Source of the DNA: Kiritimatiellaceae bacterium
GTDB taxonomy: Bacteria > Verrucomicrobiota > Kiritimatiellia > Kiritimatiellales > Tichowtungiaceae
Direction: 5' to 3'
NCBI GenBank assembly: GCA_013141415.1
Contig: JABFQY010000001.1
Location: 248,001-312,000 of the forward strand
Length of the DNA stretch: 64,000 bases
Of this stretch, positions 6,185 through 11,983 are shown piece after piece (the first letter of the stretch is position 1; every line of letters begins with the position of its first letter). The position numbers and the translations under genes are program-made. The notes under the pieces are model-generated. The model searched no databases. It was not told the DNA's origin and worked only from the letters and a program-made list of their open reading frames with translations.

Positions 6185-8014
6185 ATGGAACGGCGGATTA
6201 GCGGATGGAATTTGTTCCTCCACGGTTCCGCCGTTTTTCTTTTCCTGCTCCTGTCCGCCTGCGGACGGAGCGATCTCGATACGTTGCGTTTCAAAGGCGA
6301 GCAGGTTCTCTACGGACAGACGGCGCGCATCAAAGGAATGGATCCTGCAAAAGCGGGCGATGTTTCTTCATCTATGGTGGTCGGGCGCATTTACGAGGGT
6401 TTGCTCGAATATTCCTATCTGGATCGTCCATATCACCTCCAGCCGATGCTCGCCGCCGCCATGCCGGATATTTCCGCCGATGGACTTACTTACACCTTTC
6501 GCATCCGCCAAGGCATTTTCTTTCAGGACGATCCGTGCTTTCCAAACGGAAAAGGGCGCGAGCTGACGGCGGAGGACTTCGTCTATTCCATCAAGCGCAT
6601 CGCGGATCAGAAGGTCGCCTCTTCCGGCTACTGGGCTTTCAACGGGCGCATTGCCGGGCTCGATGAATTCCGCGCCGCATCAGCGGGCAATTTGCCGACA
6701 GATTACAGCGCACCGGTCGAAGGTCTGCGCGCGCCGGATCGCTATACCTTTCAGATTCAGCTCAAAGAACCTTATCCGCAACTGCTTTGGGTTTTGGCCA
6801 TGAACTATGCTTTCGCCGTCCCGCGCGAAGCGGTTGAACGGTACGGCATAGAGTTCATCAATCATCCTGTCGGTACCGGCCCGTACATTCTTAAATCGCA
6901 AAAAAACAACTACCGCATCGAATTTGTCCGTAATCCGAAATGGGTGGAGACCGGTCGCGTTGAACTCTATCCATCCACCGGAACCGCCGAAGCCCGCGCC
7001 GCCGGACTGCTTGATGATGCAGGCAAGCAGGTTCCTTTTATTGATCGCATTGTGCAATATGTGACGGACGATCCAACGACTGCGTGGATGATGTTTCTGT
7101 CGGGACAGTTCAGCTATAGCACAATCTCTCGCGACAACTGGAGCGCTGTCATCACGCCCAGCCGGGATCTGGCTGCCAGTATGAAAGAGCAGGGTGTTGA
7201 ACTGCTTTCCAGTCCGACGCTCTATCTTTCTTACATTGGCTTCAATCTGGATGATCCCGTCGTCGGTAAAAATAAGAAATTGCGGCAGGCGCTCAGTTGC
7301 GCGTTCGATCCCGAGCTTCTGGTGCAGTACTACAACGGTCGCGTCACGCCGGTCTACGGCCCGCTTCCCAGTCCGCTGGCGGGCTTTAAACCCAAGCCGA
7401 CCGACTATTCATTCAACCTTGAAAAGGCAAAAAGGCTTTTGACTGAAGCGGGTTATCCAAACGGCATCAATCCTGCAACCGGACGCCGTCTTGAGCTGAC
7501 TCTCGAGCTTGGCGACGCGGCGCCCGATACGCGACAGTCGGTTGAACTCATGGTCGGCATGGTCGATAAAATCGGCATTGTGCTGAAAGCCAGTTACAAC
7601 AACTGGCCGGCTTTTCTCGACAAGATGGATCGCCGTCAGGCGCAGATATTCAAGCTCGGCTGGGTTGCTGATTATCCGGACTCTGAAAACTTTCTTCAGC
7701 TCTTCTGCGGCGCGAATGTGTCGCCCGGCCCCAATCACTCTAATTACGTAAATCCGGAGTTTGATAAACTCTACAATCAGTTGCGCACCATGCTGCCCGG
7801 CCCGGAGAAAGACCGTCTCTGTGAGCAAATGGCGGATATCGTGATCGAAGACTGTCCGTGGGTTTTCCTGTACCAGCCGATGGATTTTGCCGTTACCCAC
7901 AACTGGCTGAAAAATTTCAGTCTCCACGACTTTTCCTATACCATGACCAAATACCGTCGTATCGACAACGCCGCATGGAATGAGTGGAAAGCGAAGCAGG
8001 GGAGGAGAAACTGA
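6185..8014 (+). CDS. Peptide/oligopeptide ABC transporter substrate-binding lipoprotein
   Basis: The 609-residue protein belongs to solute-binding family 5. It has a signal sequence ending in the lipobox LLSAC at about residues 23-27, so it is an anchored lipoprotein. Family features are VVGRIYEGLLEY, FRIRQGIFFQDD and AEDFVYSIKRI in the first lobe and NHPVGTGPYIL near residue 225. The 3' end overlaps the next permease start by one base (TGATG). The ligand is probably a short peptide but cannot be fixed from sequence. Confidence 0.88.
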   Translation: MERRISGWNLFLHGSAVFLFLLLSACGRSDLDTLRFKGEQVLYGQTARIKGMDPAKAGDVSSSMVVGRIYEGLLEYSYLDRPYHLQPMLAAAMPDISADGLTYTFRIRQGIFFQDDPCFPNGKGRELTAEDFVYSIKRIADQKVASSGYWAFNGRIAGLDEFRAASAGNLPTDYSAPVEGLRAPDRYTFQIQLKEPYPQLLWVLAMNYAFAVPREAVERYGIEFINHPVGTGPYILKSQKNNYRIEFVRNPKWVETGRVELYPSTGTAEARAAGLLDDAGKQVPFIDRIVQYVTDDPTTAWMMFLSGQFSYSTISRDNWSAVITPSRDLAASMKEQGVELLSSPTLYLSYIGFNLDDPVVGKNKKLRQALSCAFDPELLVQYYNGRVTPVYGPLPSPLAGFKPKPTDYSFNLEKAKRLLTEAGYPNGINPATGRRLELTLELGDAAPDTRQSVELMVGMVDKIGIVLKASYNNWPAFLDKMDRRQAQIFKLGWVADYPDSENFLQLFCGANVSPGPNHSNYVNPEFDKLYNQLRTMLPGPEKDRLCEQMADIVIEDCPWVFLYQPMDFAVTHNWLKNFSLHDFSYTMTKYRRIDNAAWNEWKAKQGRRN

Positions 8015-9324
8015 TGCTTCGTTACATCGGCAAGCGAATCCTCCAGATGATCCCGACGGTGTTCGGCGTCATCATGATTACGTTTGTTCTGTTTAACATG
8101 GTCGGCGGCAGTCCGGCTCAACAGGTGCTCGGTCCGCACGCGCAGGCCGACACACTCGAACAGTTTGATGAGCAGCGCGGCTTCAACAAGCCGCTGTTTA
8201 TCGGAGCTCGCACAACGACCCGCGCCTACGCCGACTCTGATTTCACTCGCACCGCTGGTGACTGGCAAAAGCAGAATGGTGTTATCTGGACGAACGGCAT
8301 AATCATTCTCCCGGCAGGCGGCGAATATGCTTTGCCGCTAAAATTTTCACTGCGCACCGACTGCGAATATGAGCTGGAAATTGAAGGCCGTTCCGCTGGA
8401 TTCCCGATGTTCGGCGACGAACAGCTTAAACTCCCGAAAGACTGGAAAAAAATCGAACTGCGGTTTCAGGCAAGGCCCGCCCTGAGCGACGCCAAAGGCG
8501 AAGTCGAATGGGGAAAGATCATTCCCGGTAATGCTCCGATCGAAATTCATTCCATTAAATTGCGCCGCATCATGAGCAACCCATTTGATTCGCAGTTCGT
8601 GTTTTATCTGAACCAGCTCGCGCATCTTGATTTCGGTATTTCGGGCAGTAGCAATCAGCGCGTTTCCAAGCTGTTGCTCGACGGCATCGGCCCCTCGCTG
8701 ATGCTCGCCGTGCCGATTTTTTTCGCCGGACTGATTGCTGCGGTCATGCTTTCGCTCTTCTGTGCCTTTTGGCGCGACACATGGGTAGATCGCTTTTTCA
8801 TCGTCTTTTCTGTCGCGTTAATGAGCGTCAACTATCTGGTTTGGATTGTCGGCGGGCAATATTTACTTGGCTTTAAACTCGGCTGGTTTCCAGTTTGGGG
8901 TTTTGAAGGGTTGCGCTATCTGATTCTGCCGGTGCTGATCGGCGTCTTCAGCGGCCTCGGAGCTGAGTTGCGCTTCTATCGCACCATCATGCTTGACGAA
9001 GCACACCGCGACTATGTCCGTACCGCACGGGCCAAAGGGGTTGGGCGTAGCGGAGTGCTGTTTAAACATGTTTTGAAAAACGCGATGATCCCCATCATTA
9101 CCAACACCGTTATCGCTATCCCGTTCCTTTACACCGGCAATCTTCTCCTCGAAAGTTTCTTCGGCATTCCCGGCCTCGGCTATCTCGGCATCAACGCCAT
9201 CAATTCATCTGACGTCGATGTGGTTCGCGCCATCGTGCTGGTTGGCGCCATTATATTTGTGATCGCCAACCTCCTGACCGACATCTGCTATGCGCTGGTT
9301 GACCCGCGGGTAAAATTGAAATGA
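8014..9324 (+). CDS. OppB/DppB-type permease with an extra extracytoplasmic domain
   Basis: This inner-membrane permease has the family's N-terminal helix (residues about 8-30), the GxxPAQQVLGPHA loop and the C-terminal permease core with the EAA loop EAHRDYVRTARAKGVGRS near residue 330. It has 436 residues, against about 310-340 for ordinary members. The excess is an insertion at about residues 64-190, between the loop after TM1 and the FYLNQLAHLDFG segment that normally follows almost directly. The insert looks like a beta-rich domain (alternating hydrophobics, VIWTNGIIILPAGGEYALPL) and would face the periplasm, next to the binding protein. ATG is shared with the upstream stop; oppC overlaps the end by 4 bp. 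Confidence 0.88.
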   Translation: MLRYIGKRILQMIPTVFGVIMITFVLFNMVGGSPAQQVLGPHAQADTLEQFDEQRGFNKPLFIGARTTTRAYADSDFTRTAGDWQKQNGVIWTNGIIILPAGGEYALPLKFSLRTDCEYELEIEGRSAGFPMFGDEQLKLPKDWKKIELRFQARPALSDAKGEVEWGKIIPGNAPIEIHSIKLRRIMSNPFDSQFVFYLNQLAHLDFGISGSSNQRVSKLLLDGIGPSLMLAVPIFFAGLIAAVMLSLFCAFWRDTWVDRFFIVFSVALMSVNYLVWIVGGQYLLGFKLGWFPVWGFEGLRYLILPVLIGVFSGLGAELRFYRTIMLDEAHRDYVRTARAKGVGRSGVLFKHVLKNAMIPIITNTVIAIPFLYTGNLLLESFFGIPGLGYLGINAINSSDVDVVRAIVLVGAIIFVIANLLTDICYALVDPRVKLK

Positions 9325-10208
9325 GCGAAAAAGGAAACAGTTTGTGGAGCGATGCCTGGCGGCGGTTGAAGAAAAACCGTCTGGCGATGGCTTGTCTCGG
9401 CATTATCACGGTTTACACCGTGCTGGCGATCTACGGCGAAGTAGTTTTTCGCTACTATCAGGCAAAAGATCAAACGGCGTTTTATCAGAAGACCGATTTG
9501 AATCAGGCCTATCAGCCACCGTCTTCCGGCCATTGGATGGGCACCGACGCACTCGGTCGCGACGTGATGCAGCGGCTGATTCAGGGAACACGCATCGCCT
9601 ACAAGGTCGGCATCATCACCGCACTCATCGCGATTCCCATTGGCGTTTTCTTCGGCTGTCTTGCCGGCTACTTCGGCGGTCGGGTGGACAGCTTTGTTGT
9701 CTGGCTTTATTCAACGGTCGCTTCCATGCCGGGCCTCTTGTTTATTCTCGCCATCGCCATGGTGGTTGGAAAAGGACTGCTCGGTATTTATCTCGGCATT
9801 GGACTCACCACCTGGGTCGGATTATGCCGTTTGATTCGCGGCGAAGTAATTAAGCACAAAGAGCAGGCTTATGTGATGGCGGCCAAAGCGCTTGGGCTGA
9901 GCTGGCCGCGGATTCTGTTCCGCCACATTCTGCCGAACGTTTTCCACGTCATCATCGTCACCTTCACGTTGCGCTTCCCGGCGGCGGTCAGCACGGAAGT
10001 GTTCATGAGCTTTCTCGGCATTGGCGTCGTCAGCGAACCGTCATGGGGAGTGATGATTAACAGCGCTCGGATGCGGCTCTGGCAAGGCGTCTGGTGGGAA
10101 ATGACTTTCGTCACGCTGGCCATCTTCGGCCTTGTTCTCGCCTTCAATCTACTCGGCGATGCTTTGCGTGATGCTCTCGACCCGCGGCTCCGCACTGAGG
10201 GCAATTGA
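9321..10208 (+). CDS. OppC/DppC-type permease
   Basis: The 295-residue second permease subunit of the peptide transporter starts within the preceding gene (ATGA overlap). HWMGTDALGRDVMQRLIQGT near residue 70 and the EAA loop EQAYVMAAKALGLSWPRIL near 187 are typical of the DppC family, with six predicted helices. No ATPase genes (OppD/OppF) follow, so the ATP-hydrolysing subunits must be encoded elsewhere. The last 60 bp overlap the 3' end of the convergent lipoprotein gene. Confidence 0.9.
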   Translation: MSEKGNSLWSDAWRRLKKNRLAMACLGIITVYTVLAIYGEVVFRYYQAKDQTAFYQKTDLNQAYQPPSSGHWMGTDALGRDVMQRLIQGTRIAYKVGIITALIAIPIGVFFGCLAGYFGGRVDSFVVWLYSTVASMPGLLFILAIAMVVGKGLLGIYLGIGLTTWVGLCRLIRGEVIKHKEQAYVMAAKALGLSWPRILFRHILPNVFHVIIVTFTLRFPAAVSTEVFMSFLGIGVVSEPSWGVMINSARMRLWQGVWWEMTFVTLAIFGLVLAFNLLGDALRDALDPRLRTEGN

Positions 10209-10949
10209 TTTTTCAGAATCTGGAAGTTTTTCTTCCAGCGACGGCGCAGGCATTTCTAAATCGAACAACTCGCCGATAAAATCGGGCGCGGCGCGGTTCT
10301 GTAGAAACGAAAGCATCTTGTTAGTGAAATGACGGCCGGACGCCGATCTCACGGACGATGTATATTCGCGTTTCAGCCGTTTATGATAAAGCGTCGAGCC
10401 GTCGGCTATCGAGGTAAGCCGGACATCCCATTCAAACCGCGCCTCCAATGTCTGCCAACGAATCCAGTACTGCGATAGAAGCGGGCCGAACAGAGCCATT
10501 AGCGGATATTTTTTGTTTGAGCCGAGATGAACGGTACGGTAGTCCCAGACGGTAACCGTCAGCAAGGAGTCAGCCCCAAACTGCTTAGCCTCTTCTTCAT
10601 TTTCAACAGTGAAAATACGTTCGTATGTGCCGGCCTGTGTCAGCGTGGAGACGATTTCAAGCCCAATGTCTTTTGATGCCGAGGCACTGGTGACGACCAC
10701 GCCGCGTCCGTCCATCAGCTGTTTATAGAGCGGACTTTCCGGTTTGAGATTGTCCGGCTCAATATCCGGATGGATACGCGGAGGCAGAACGGCAACCCGA
10801 AACGGGTTCGGTTTCGAAGCGGGGATTGGCTTGCGGATCGGCGTCTCAATCGAGGTGGCGCATCCGCACAGCAAAAAAGAAACCGCCGTTCCTGCAATCA
10901 GCAATGGAACGGCGGCTTTCATGAACAACAGATCGGTGCGATTCCGCAC
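10149..10949 (-). CDS. Lipoprotein of unknown function
   Basis: A secreted protein of up to 266 residues. The hydrophobic stretch LLIAGTAVSFLLCGC ends in a lipobox-like LCGC, indicating lipid anchoring. The remainder starts with RVAVLPPRIHPD, a pattern found in lipoproteins with a GNA1162/CsgG-like alpha/beta start, but the similarity is too weak to assign. The GTG start follows the OmpA-like stop without a gap; an internal ATG at 10922 gives a more conventional signal peptide. It is probably co-transcribed with the OmpA-like gene and overlaps oppC tail-to-tail. Confidence 0.7.
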   Translation of the reverse strand: MRNRTDLLFMKAAVPLLIAGTAVSFLLCGCATSIETPIRKPIPASKPNPFRVAVLPPRIHPDIEPDNLKPESPLYKQLMDGRGVVVTSASASKDIGLEIVSTLTQAGTYERIFTVENEEEAKQFGADSLLTVTVWDYRTVHLGSNKKYPLMALFGPLLSQYWIRWQTLEARFEWDVRLTSIADGSTLYHKRLKREYTSSVRSASGRHFTNKMLSFLQNRAAPDFIGELFDLEMPAPSLEEKLPDSEKSIALSAEPRVESITQSIAE

Positions 10950-11735
10950 TTATTTCTTTTCTACAACGATCGAGTTCTTAGCAGGCATGACAACGATAAC
11001 CGCGCGGCGGTTCAGGCGTTTGTTGGCAGCGCTATCGTTCGGAACAACCGGCTGAGCATCGCCGCAGGCAACCGCTTTGAGGCGTTCTGCAGGAATCTGT
11101 TTTTCGTTCATCAGATAGTAGAGAACGGACATGCTGCGGTTGTAAGAGAGTTCCCAGTTGTCTTTCCATTTCGACTTCTGAATCGGGTCGCTGTCCGTGT
11201 GGCCTTCAATGGTGATATCGCGGTCGGCGAAATCAGCAGAGATGACGTTCAGCACGCTGTCGAGCGTGGTTTTGCTGCTGACTTTCAGGTCGGCCTTGCC
11301 AGCTTCGAAAAGAACTTCGTTCAGAATGGTGAAACGAATCTGACCGTTAACGGCTTCAACCTGCACATTTTCCATGCCGGGCTGACCGCGGAGTTTGGCT
11401 TCGGCATCTGCGAGCTGACGTTGAAGATCATTGATCTGAGCTTCTTTGTCTTTCATGCCGGCAGCATTATCGCCTGCATATTCGTCGAGTGCGTCGCCGA
11501 TGAGAGCACCGCCAGCAGCACCGGCCACGGCACCGTATCCGGCACCTTCCCAAGAGGTCAGGGAGCCATTGATGGCATTATGCGCCCAGACGGCACCGAC
11601 GGCTGCACCAGCTGCACCACCAGCGACAGCACCCTGCTGTGTGGGGGTCAATGGTACTTTGGGCGAGCGGCAACCTGTAGCAACTACACACAAGGAAAGA
11701 ACGGTAACGGACAAAACACTTTTCATCCACTTCAT
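10950..11735 (-). CDS. OmpA-family peptidoglycan-binding lipoprotein
   Basis: A 261-residue lipoprotein: signal peptide with lipobox VATGC, then a glycine-zipper region (GAVAGGAAGAAVGAVW and GAVAGAAGGALIGDAL), a short coiled-coil (MKDKEAQINDLQRQLADAEA), and a C-terminal OmpA domain. The OmpA domain shows the pattern DITIEGHTDSDP and NWELSYNRSMSVLYYL. It should tether the outer membrane to peptidoglycan. The start is chosen at the ATG preceded by GTGAGGTG; an upstream GTG 12 bp earlier is less likely. The next gene follows with no gap. Confidence 0.87.
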   Translation of the reverse strand: MKWMKSVLSVTVLSLCVVATGCRSPKVPLTPTQQGAVAGGAAGAAVGAVWAHNAINGSLTSWEGAGYGAVAGAAGGALIGDALDEYAGDNAAGMKDKEAQINDLQRQLADAEAKLRGQPGMENVQVEAVNGQIRFTILNEVLFEAGKADLKVSSKTTLDSVLNVISADFADRDITIEGHTDSDPIQKSKWKDNWELSYNRSMSVLYYLMNEKQIPAERLKAVACGDAQPVVPNDSAANKRLNRRAVIVVMPAKNSIVVEKK

Positions 11736-11983
11736 GATACACCTCACTAAATATCCAACTCCAACAACCCATTTTCAAATACGGGACGGACACACGCCCG
11801 GCAAGACCGTATTAGGAAAGAGGTTTAAAAGATGGCCAGATGTTGCTGGATATGCCGAAAAAGTCAAGCGCGACAATAAATATCTATGTACACGCTGATT
11901 CGCGGGTTCAGTGTGGCCTGCCCCCGAGTGTGTATCCAGATTTCAGGGGAATTGATCGTCCGGCGGCCTTTGTGCCTTCGCGG

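Follow-up and report, generated by a model that had tools for sequence, protein, structure and literature searches.

The oppABC locus of a Kiritimatiellaceae bacterium raises the question of why the permease subunit OppB, otherwise well known from peptide importers, carries a long additional stretch on its outer side, and what this stretch may do. The window, i.e. the whole stretch of DNA that was analysed, covers 64,000 nucleotides (contig JABFQY010000001.1, positions 248,001 to 312,000). An earlier note, made from the letters alone, had described the additional residues of OppB as a large periplasmic insert.

The oppB gene and its additional domain

The + strand of the window carries tpiA (presumably, as named from its translation), secG, oppA, oppB and oppC. 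The oppB reading frame is unbroken in the list of open reading frames (7984/8014-9324, + strand). Its ATG at 8014 shares a TGATG overlap with the oppA stop and is preceded by GGAGGAG, a good ribosome-binding site, and oppC starts within an ATGA overlap at the end of oppB. Based on these overlaps and the ribosome-binding site, OppA, OppB and OppC are probably made together. The gene context fits the OppB/DppB permease family, as oppC and the gene of a family 5 binding protein share the operon and the genome encodes OppDF. The oppD-oppF ATPase pair lies on another contig (L033 2891-4512) beside an LptF/LptG gene, with oppABC in the window at 6185-10208. The genome gave a single match to the window OppB, and oppA was the only SBP_bac_5 match in a profile search of the genome, so OppABC looks like its sole transporter of this kind. 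By its named relatives, the window OppB belongs in the Kiritimatiellia (Verrucomicrobiota), with the nearest being 86% identical and a Pontiellaceae genome 74%.

Two genes on the opposite strand adjoin the operon. A lipoprotein-like protein of 266 aa, for which Pfam gave no match (window 10149-10949, - strand), overlaps the end of oppC with its own end, and an OmpA-family protein (10950-11747, - strand) lies next to it. Among other classes, L130-L149 have oppB without oppA or oppC as neighbors in the stretches checked, and L164 keeps a compact oppABCDF.

Compared to its nearest standard-size relatives (Chitinivibrionales, Phycisphaerae), which have 0-12 residues at this site, the window OppB has about 126 (Table). 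This agrees with the approximately 125 extra residues noted earlier, although the range then given, 8200-8585, runs about three residues too far. Pfam BPD_transp_1_N was found on residues 1-63 only (profile 1-63 of 114; 25.4 bits, cut-off 23.8) and BPD_transp_1 on residues 243-434 (116.9 bits, cut-off 26.4). When OppB was aligned to the sequences of solved OppB/DppB proteins, residues 47-178 remained unmatched by E. coli OppB, and the standard-size L055 aligned as two blocks (model columns 2-62 to its residues 3-63, columns 186-428 to 65-311). A mis-joined gene or frameshift was ruled out, as the full-length relatives are single open frames.

Table. Features of the oppABC locus. Positions are those of the window, residue numbers those of OppB.
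Feature	Position	Strand	Description
oppA	6185..8014	+	family 5 substrate-binding lipoprotein, 609 aa
oppB with insert	8014..9324	+	436 aa; start overlaps oppA stop, stop overlaps oppC start
TM1 (residues 2-29)	8017..8100	+	AlphaFold2 model
Scoop motif helices alpha1 (34-39) and alpha2 (45-55)	8113..8178	+	AlphaFold2 model; PMC12136057
Insert (residues 63-188)	8200..8577	+	predicted carbohydrate-binding-module-like beta-sandwich
Short helix alpha3 (194-203)	8593..8622	+	directly after scoop motif in standard OppB/DppB
Transmembrane core TM2-TM6 (residues 217-429) with RTA coupling region	8662..9300	+	Pfam, AlphaFold2 model, structure comparison
oppC	9321..10208	+	standard size, 295 aa, without insert

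The full-length AlphaFold2 model (pLDDT 80.4, pTM 0.67) has the strands of the insert at residues 66-186 and places the insertion point between scoop helix alpha2 and helix alpha3, i.e. between TM1 and TM2. As the scoop motif beside it is periplasmic in the solved E. coli DppB, the insert is periplasmic, as had been proposed; a cytoplasmic location was ruled out by its position after TM1 and on the scoop side in the model. Outside the insert, the modeled protein is a standard peptide-importer permease. The core superposed on E. coli OppB (8z21_A) with Z 28.2 (2.1 A, 293 aligned) and on Mtb DppB (8wd9) with Z 27.1 (2.6 A, 304 aligned). The E. coli and Mtb OppB/DppB proteins (8z21, 8z1v-8z1z, 8j5q, 8wd9) share with it the family, the transmembrane core, the scoop and alpha3, but in them alpha3 follows the scoop motif without an insert. 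The arrangement is therefore not standard for OppB in general, as stated earlier, yet it has a published precedent in the pneumococcal AmiC. As in AmiC-type OppB, defined as such in PMC11192437, the models have a separate domain between TM1 and TM2 besides the scoop.

Distribution and evolution of the insert

Matches to the window OppB were found in 93 of 97 near genomes, in 54 of the 97 as one uninterrupted full-length match (counted as rows). In a sample of 383 genomes from the phylum, 205 matched OppB at E<=1e-50. The matches listed include at least 94 single full-length ones (1,227-1,464 bp), about a third of which, among those listed, come from other classes. The inserts of these other Verrucomicrobiota classes, when compared to that of the window, gave an hhalign probability of 98.2 (E 3.7e-14, 112 columns) and are, on this profile comparison, the same domain. 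The search for the insert in other genomes, suggested in the earlier note for the PVC group, recovered it in other classes of the phylum. Plasmids gave 3,495 records matching OppB, three of them with at least 80% coverage; the best match listed (H1) extends across the query but is of standard size, 936 bp.

In an alignment of 74 sequences, 72-154 aa were found at the insert site in 45 rows (Verrucomicrobiota and a Planctomycetota group), 0-13 aa in 28 rows, and a different stretch of 74 aa in the remaining row (L063). Some members of the class to which the window belongs have an insert shortened to 80-113 aa, and two of its genera lack it (2-7 aa), as was read directly in L158, L161 and L169 and inferred from frame size in the remaining genomes of these genera. 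A tree of the core alone, built by a quick method, gave the Verrucomicrobiota as one group of 46 rows (SH-aLRT 95), in which the three rows lacking the insert form a starred subgroup. Because these rows nest inside the group, the pattern reads as a shortening of the insert and its later loss in one lineage within the window's class. The reduced inserts of the A6 family matched the full insert over 53 columns with a probability of 91, and the two likely share their origin. L164 comes from another class and lacks the insert; in the tree it stands beside the window's class (support 90, long branch), which may reflect a second loss or gains that occurred separately.

Additional residues were also seen at the same site outside the Verrucomicrobiota. 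Three Planctomycetota OppB proteins (L064 3671-5323, L076 3797-5308, L104 2374-3831) have a beta-rich-looking insert of 120-128 aa; they belong to a second OppB subfamily that is otherwise insert-free in the rows read. Their identity with the domain of the window was not supported (hhalign probability 3.3 and 3.2, with three sequences only). One Phycisphaerales OppB (L063 118-1281) has an insert of 74 aa that is helical-looking and charged. From these comparisons, unrelated inserts appear to have arisen at the same OppB site in Planctomycetota.

Within the genus the median dN/dS was 0.27 for the insert (42 of 55 pairs with usable dS) and 0.06 for the core (46 of 55), values that are rough owing to high dS. 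The insert is thus under purifying selection. Over 23 members of the class the mean protein distance of the insert was 1.13 and that of the core 0.37, i.e. the insert changed about three times faster. In 33 sequences, its conservation is highest close to the two points of attachment (G64 in 33/33, R185 in 91%, T69 in 85%, A71 in 73%, also Y72) and at positions that look structural (F77, F111 88%).

The threefold rate, the spread in length from 72 to 154 aa, the loss in one lineage and the unrelated inserts at the same spot would all suit a fast-drifting decoration that has no dedicated partner and is tolerated since the loop lies outside the transport path. However, a dN/dS well under 1 and the persistence of the domain between classes speak against this, and retention across the phylum argues for a function; we regard mere decoration as unlikely. 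The insert is real and has been kept as a domain over several Verrucomicrobiota classes, on an otherwise standard permease.

Predicted fold and carbohydrate-binding modules

Modeled alone with AlphaFold2 (21 sequences), the insert was predicted with confidence as a beta-sandwich (pLDDT 89.5, pTM 0.82), in line with the beta-rich character noted before. Foldseek with this model gave a best E of 0.012 and no match at E<=0.001, and CBM16, CBM4 and related jelly-rolls recurred among its matches (CBM, carbohydrate-binding module). VIA-align, which is a second look at Foldseek's own match list, ranked 8x8h (Z 10.1, 2.4 A, 105 aligned) and 4qpw (Z 10.1, 2.7 A, 111 aligned) at the top, and CBM29 1gwm followed with Z 9.8 (3.6 A, 113 aligned). 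Three CBM entries reached a Z of 10.1, and the table is otherwise filled by CBMs and by toxin or phage domains with the same fold; for a model lacking a clear match, the best Z is typically 7-8. We consider the CBM-type fold a fair assignment (Z 10.1 over 105-111 of 127 residues), which is no proof of common descent. The insert is confidently predicted to be an extra periplasmic domain of CBM (jelly-roll) fold, spliced between the scoop motif and alpha3 of OppB.

The beta-sandwich predicted for nearly the entire insert is shared with CBM families 4, 16, 22 and 29 (Z 8.6-10.1), but there is no significant sequence match, and the insert resides in a membrane permease instead of a glycan-degrading enzyme. 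In a Pfam scan of 21 insert members, no CBM family was found at E<=1, except for the mannose-binding PAW family in one member (E 0.036). Sequence profiles gave weak matches to GH10 CBMs (E 0.44) and a galactose-binding lectin, in the range of E 0.44-0.47. Aromatic residues are kept across classes at positions 63, 66, 72, 77 and 111 only, with the prominent 84 and 119 being lost in other classes, and no conserved aromatic platform suggesting a sugar site was seen in the 33 sequences. A search of the genome for a second copy of the domain, as a possible donor, found only the insert itself.

These data bear on whether the insert could be a working CBM whose ligands, captured beside the peptide channel, would be glycosylated peptides, fragments of peptidoglycan or glycans of the envelope. 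The structural matches are mostly glycan-binding (CBM4/16/22/29, a porphyran CBM, the BiXyn10A CBM), and the profile and PAW matches point the same way. However, none of the CBM families was reached at a meaningful E-value, few aromatics are kept across classes, and the fold is common and serves protein contacts too, which makes a working module quite unlikely. The previous suggestion of a sugar- or peptide-binding module is therefore borne out for the fold, which is that of sugar-binding modules, while binding of sugar or peptide is unsupported, as no aromatics are conserved beyond likely structural positions. In a related and very improbable scenario, a functional glycan-binding module was acquired by an ancestral permease of the Verrucomicrobiota and now supplies the importer with glycosylated peptides or with glycopeptides from the cell wall. 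If this were true, OppB itself, and not OppA alone, would be a substrate-recognising subunit.

A proposed second docking platform for OppA

On balance, the insert is probably a second docking platform for OppA, in which a sugar-binding fold has been reused rather than kept as a working sugar site. In E. coli DppABCDF the scoop sits in the cleft of DppA, with its alpha2 in contact with the N-lobe (PMC12136057). Only a few residues separate the insert from alpha2 on one side and from alpha3 on the other, and it should therefore stand beside the OppA N-lobe when OppA is bound. Its placement next to the periplasmic scoop also favors the OppA-facing orientation envisaged in the earlier note. On landing on OppBC, OppA would take up the scoop as a wedge between its two lobes, and the insert, anchored shortly behind alpha2, would meet the outside of the first lobe (N-lobe). 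As a second platform the insert may then stabilize or orient OppA for peptide release, in the way put forward for AmiC ECD2 and known from MalF P2. That its best-conserved positions include G64, T69, A71, Y72 and R185, close to where it is attached, also speaks for this reading.

AmiC, from the pneumococcal Ami oligopeptide transporter, is likewise an OppB-type protein with a second extracellular domain between TM1 and TM2 besides the scoop-like ECD1, and PMC11192437 describes ECD2 as modeled and proposed to be a docking platform that touches only Lobe 1 of the binding protein. However, AmiC is a Gram-positive protein of 498 aa whose extracellular region (31-278) is larger, and it is likened to the window OppB by architecture only. 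MalF P2 resembles the proposed role in being a large periplasmic domain of one permease subunit that directly contacts the binding protein, in this case MalE (PMC3150292), but it has about 180 residues (91-271) and belongs to another ABC importer subfamily. MalF chains ranked well below the OppB/DppB rows in the structure search with full-length OppB and were absent from the best 50 matches listed for the insert model, an absence that excludes nothing on the fold. The fold of MalF P2 is Ig-like.

Data on OppA lend the docking platform weak support. Insert distances tracked OppA distances beyond the OppB core with a partial r of 0.48, but the value for OppC was nearly as high (0.36), and shared ancestry may explain both. 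OppA segment 154-176 was absent in 8 of 8 members of the insert-less lineage and in 0 of 41 others; this co-loss counts as one event, and the segment is retained in outgroups that lack the insert. Apart from it, no OppA feature tracked the insert over the whole tree. The fast divergence of the insert body (1.13 vs 0.37) is not obviously expected of a conserved docking face. In other Verrucomicrobiota classes oppB was not beside oppA in the stretches read, and OppA of the same family is encoded elsewhere in those genomes. Insert-less relatives presumably function, and the domain would thus be dispensable for transport as such. In a separate observation, OppA residues ~258-282 (window 6956-7030) form a stretch of about 25 residues without a counterpart in the solved homologue 8upi; it is shortened where the OppB insert is reduced or lost, and slightly shorter in other classes.

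That the insert instead recruits another envelope partner, e.g. a periplasmic peptidase raising the local peptide supply, is pure analogy to mammalian PepT1/PepT2, whose inserted pair of extracellular Ig-like domains binds trypsin, with transport not appreciably reduced when the pair is removed (PMC4597091), and is hardly probable as neither a conserved exposed motif nor such a gene neighbor was found.

No publication on this OppB insert was found in literature searches, whose coverage was mostly outside subscription papers, and the CBM-fold insert is apparently an undescribed variant of a well-known transporter. OppB with this predicted domain at the docking site is widespread in Verrucomicrobiota. 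With the docking platform as the favored role, an unannotated stretch that makes up more than a quarter of OppB in much of the phylum gains a predicted fold and a testable role. Domains appear to have been inserted at the scoop/alpha3 junction of OppB at least three times (in Verrucomicrobiota, in the second subfamily of Planctomycetota and in one Phycisphaerales). The natural series of full, shortened and lost inserts would offer a way to test what a second docking domain contributes in a type I ABC importer.
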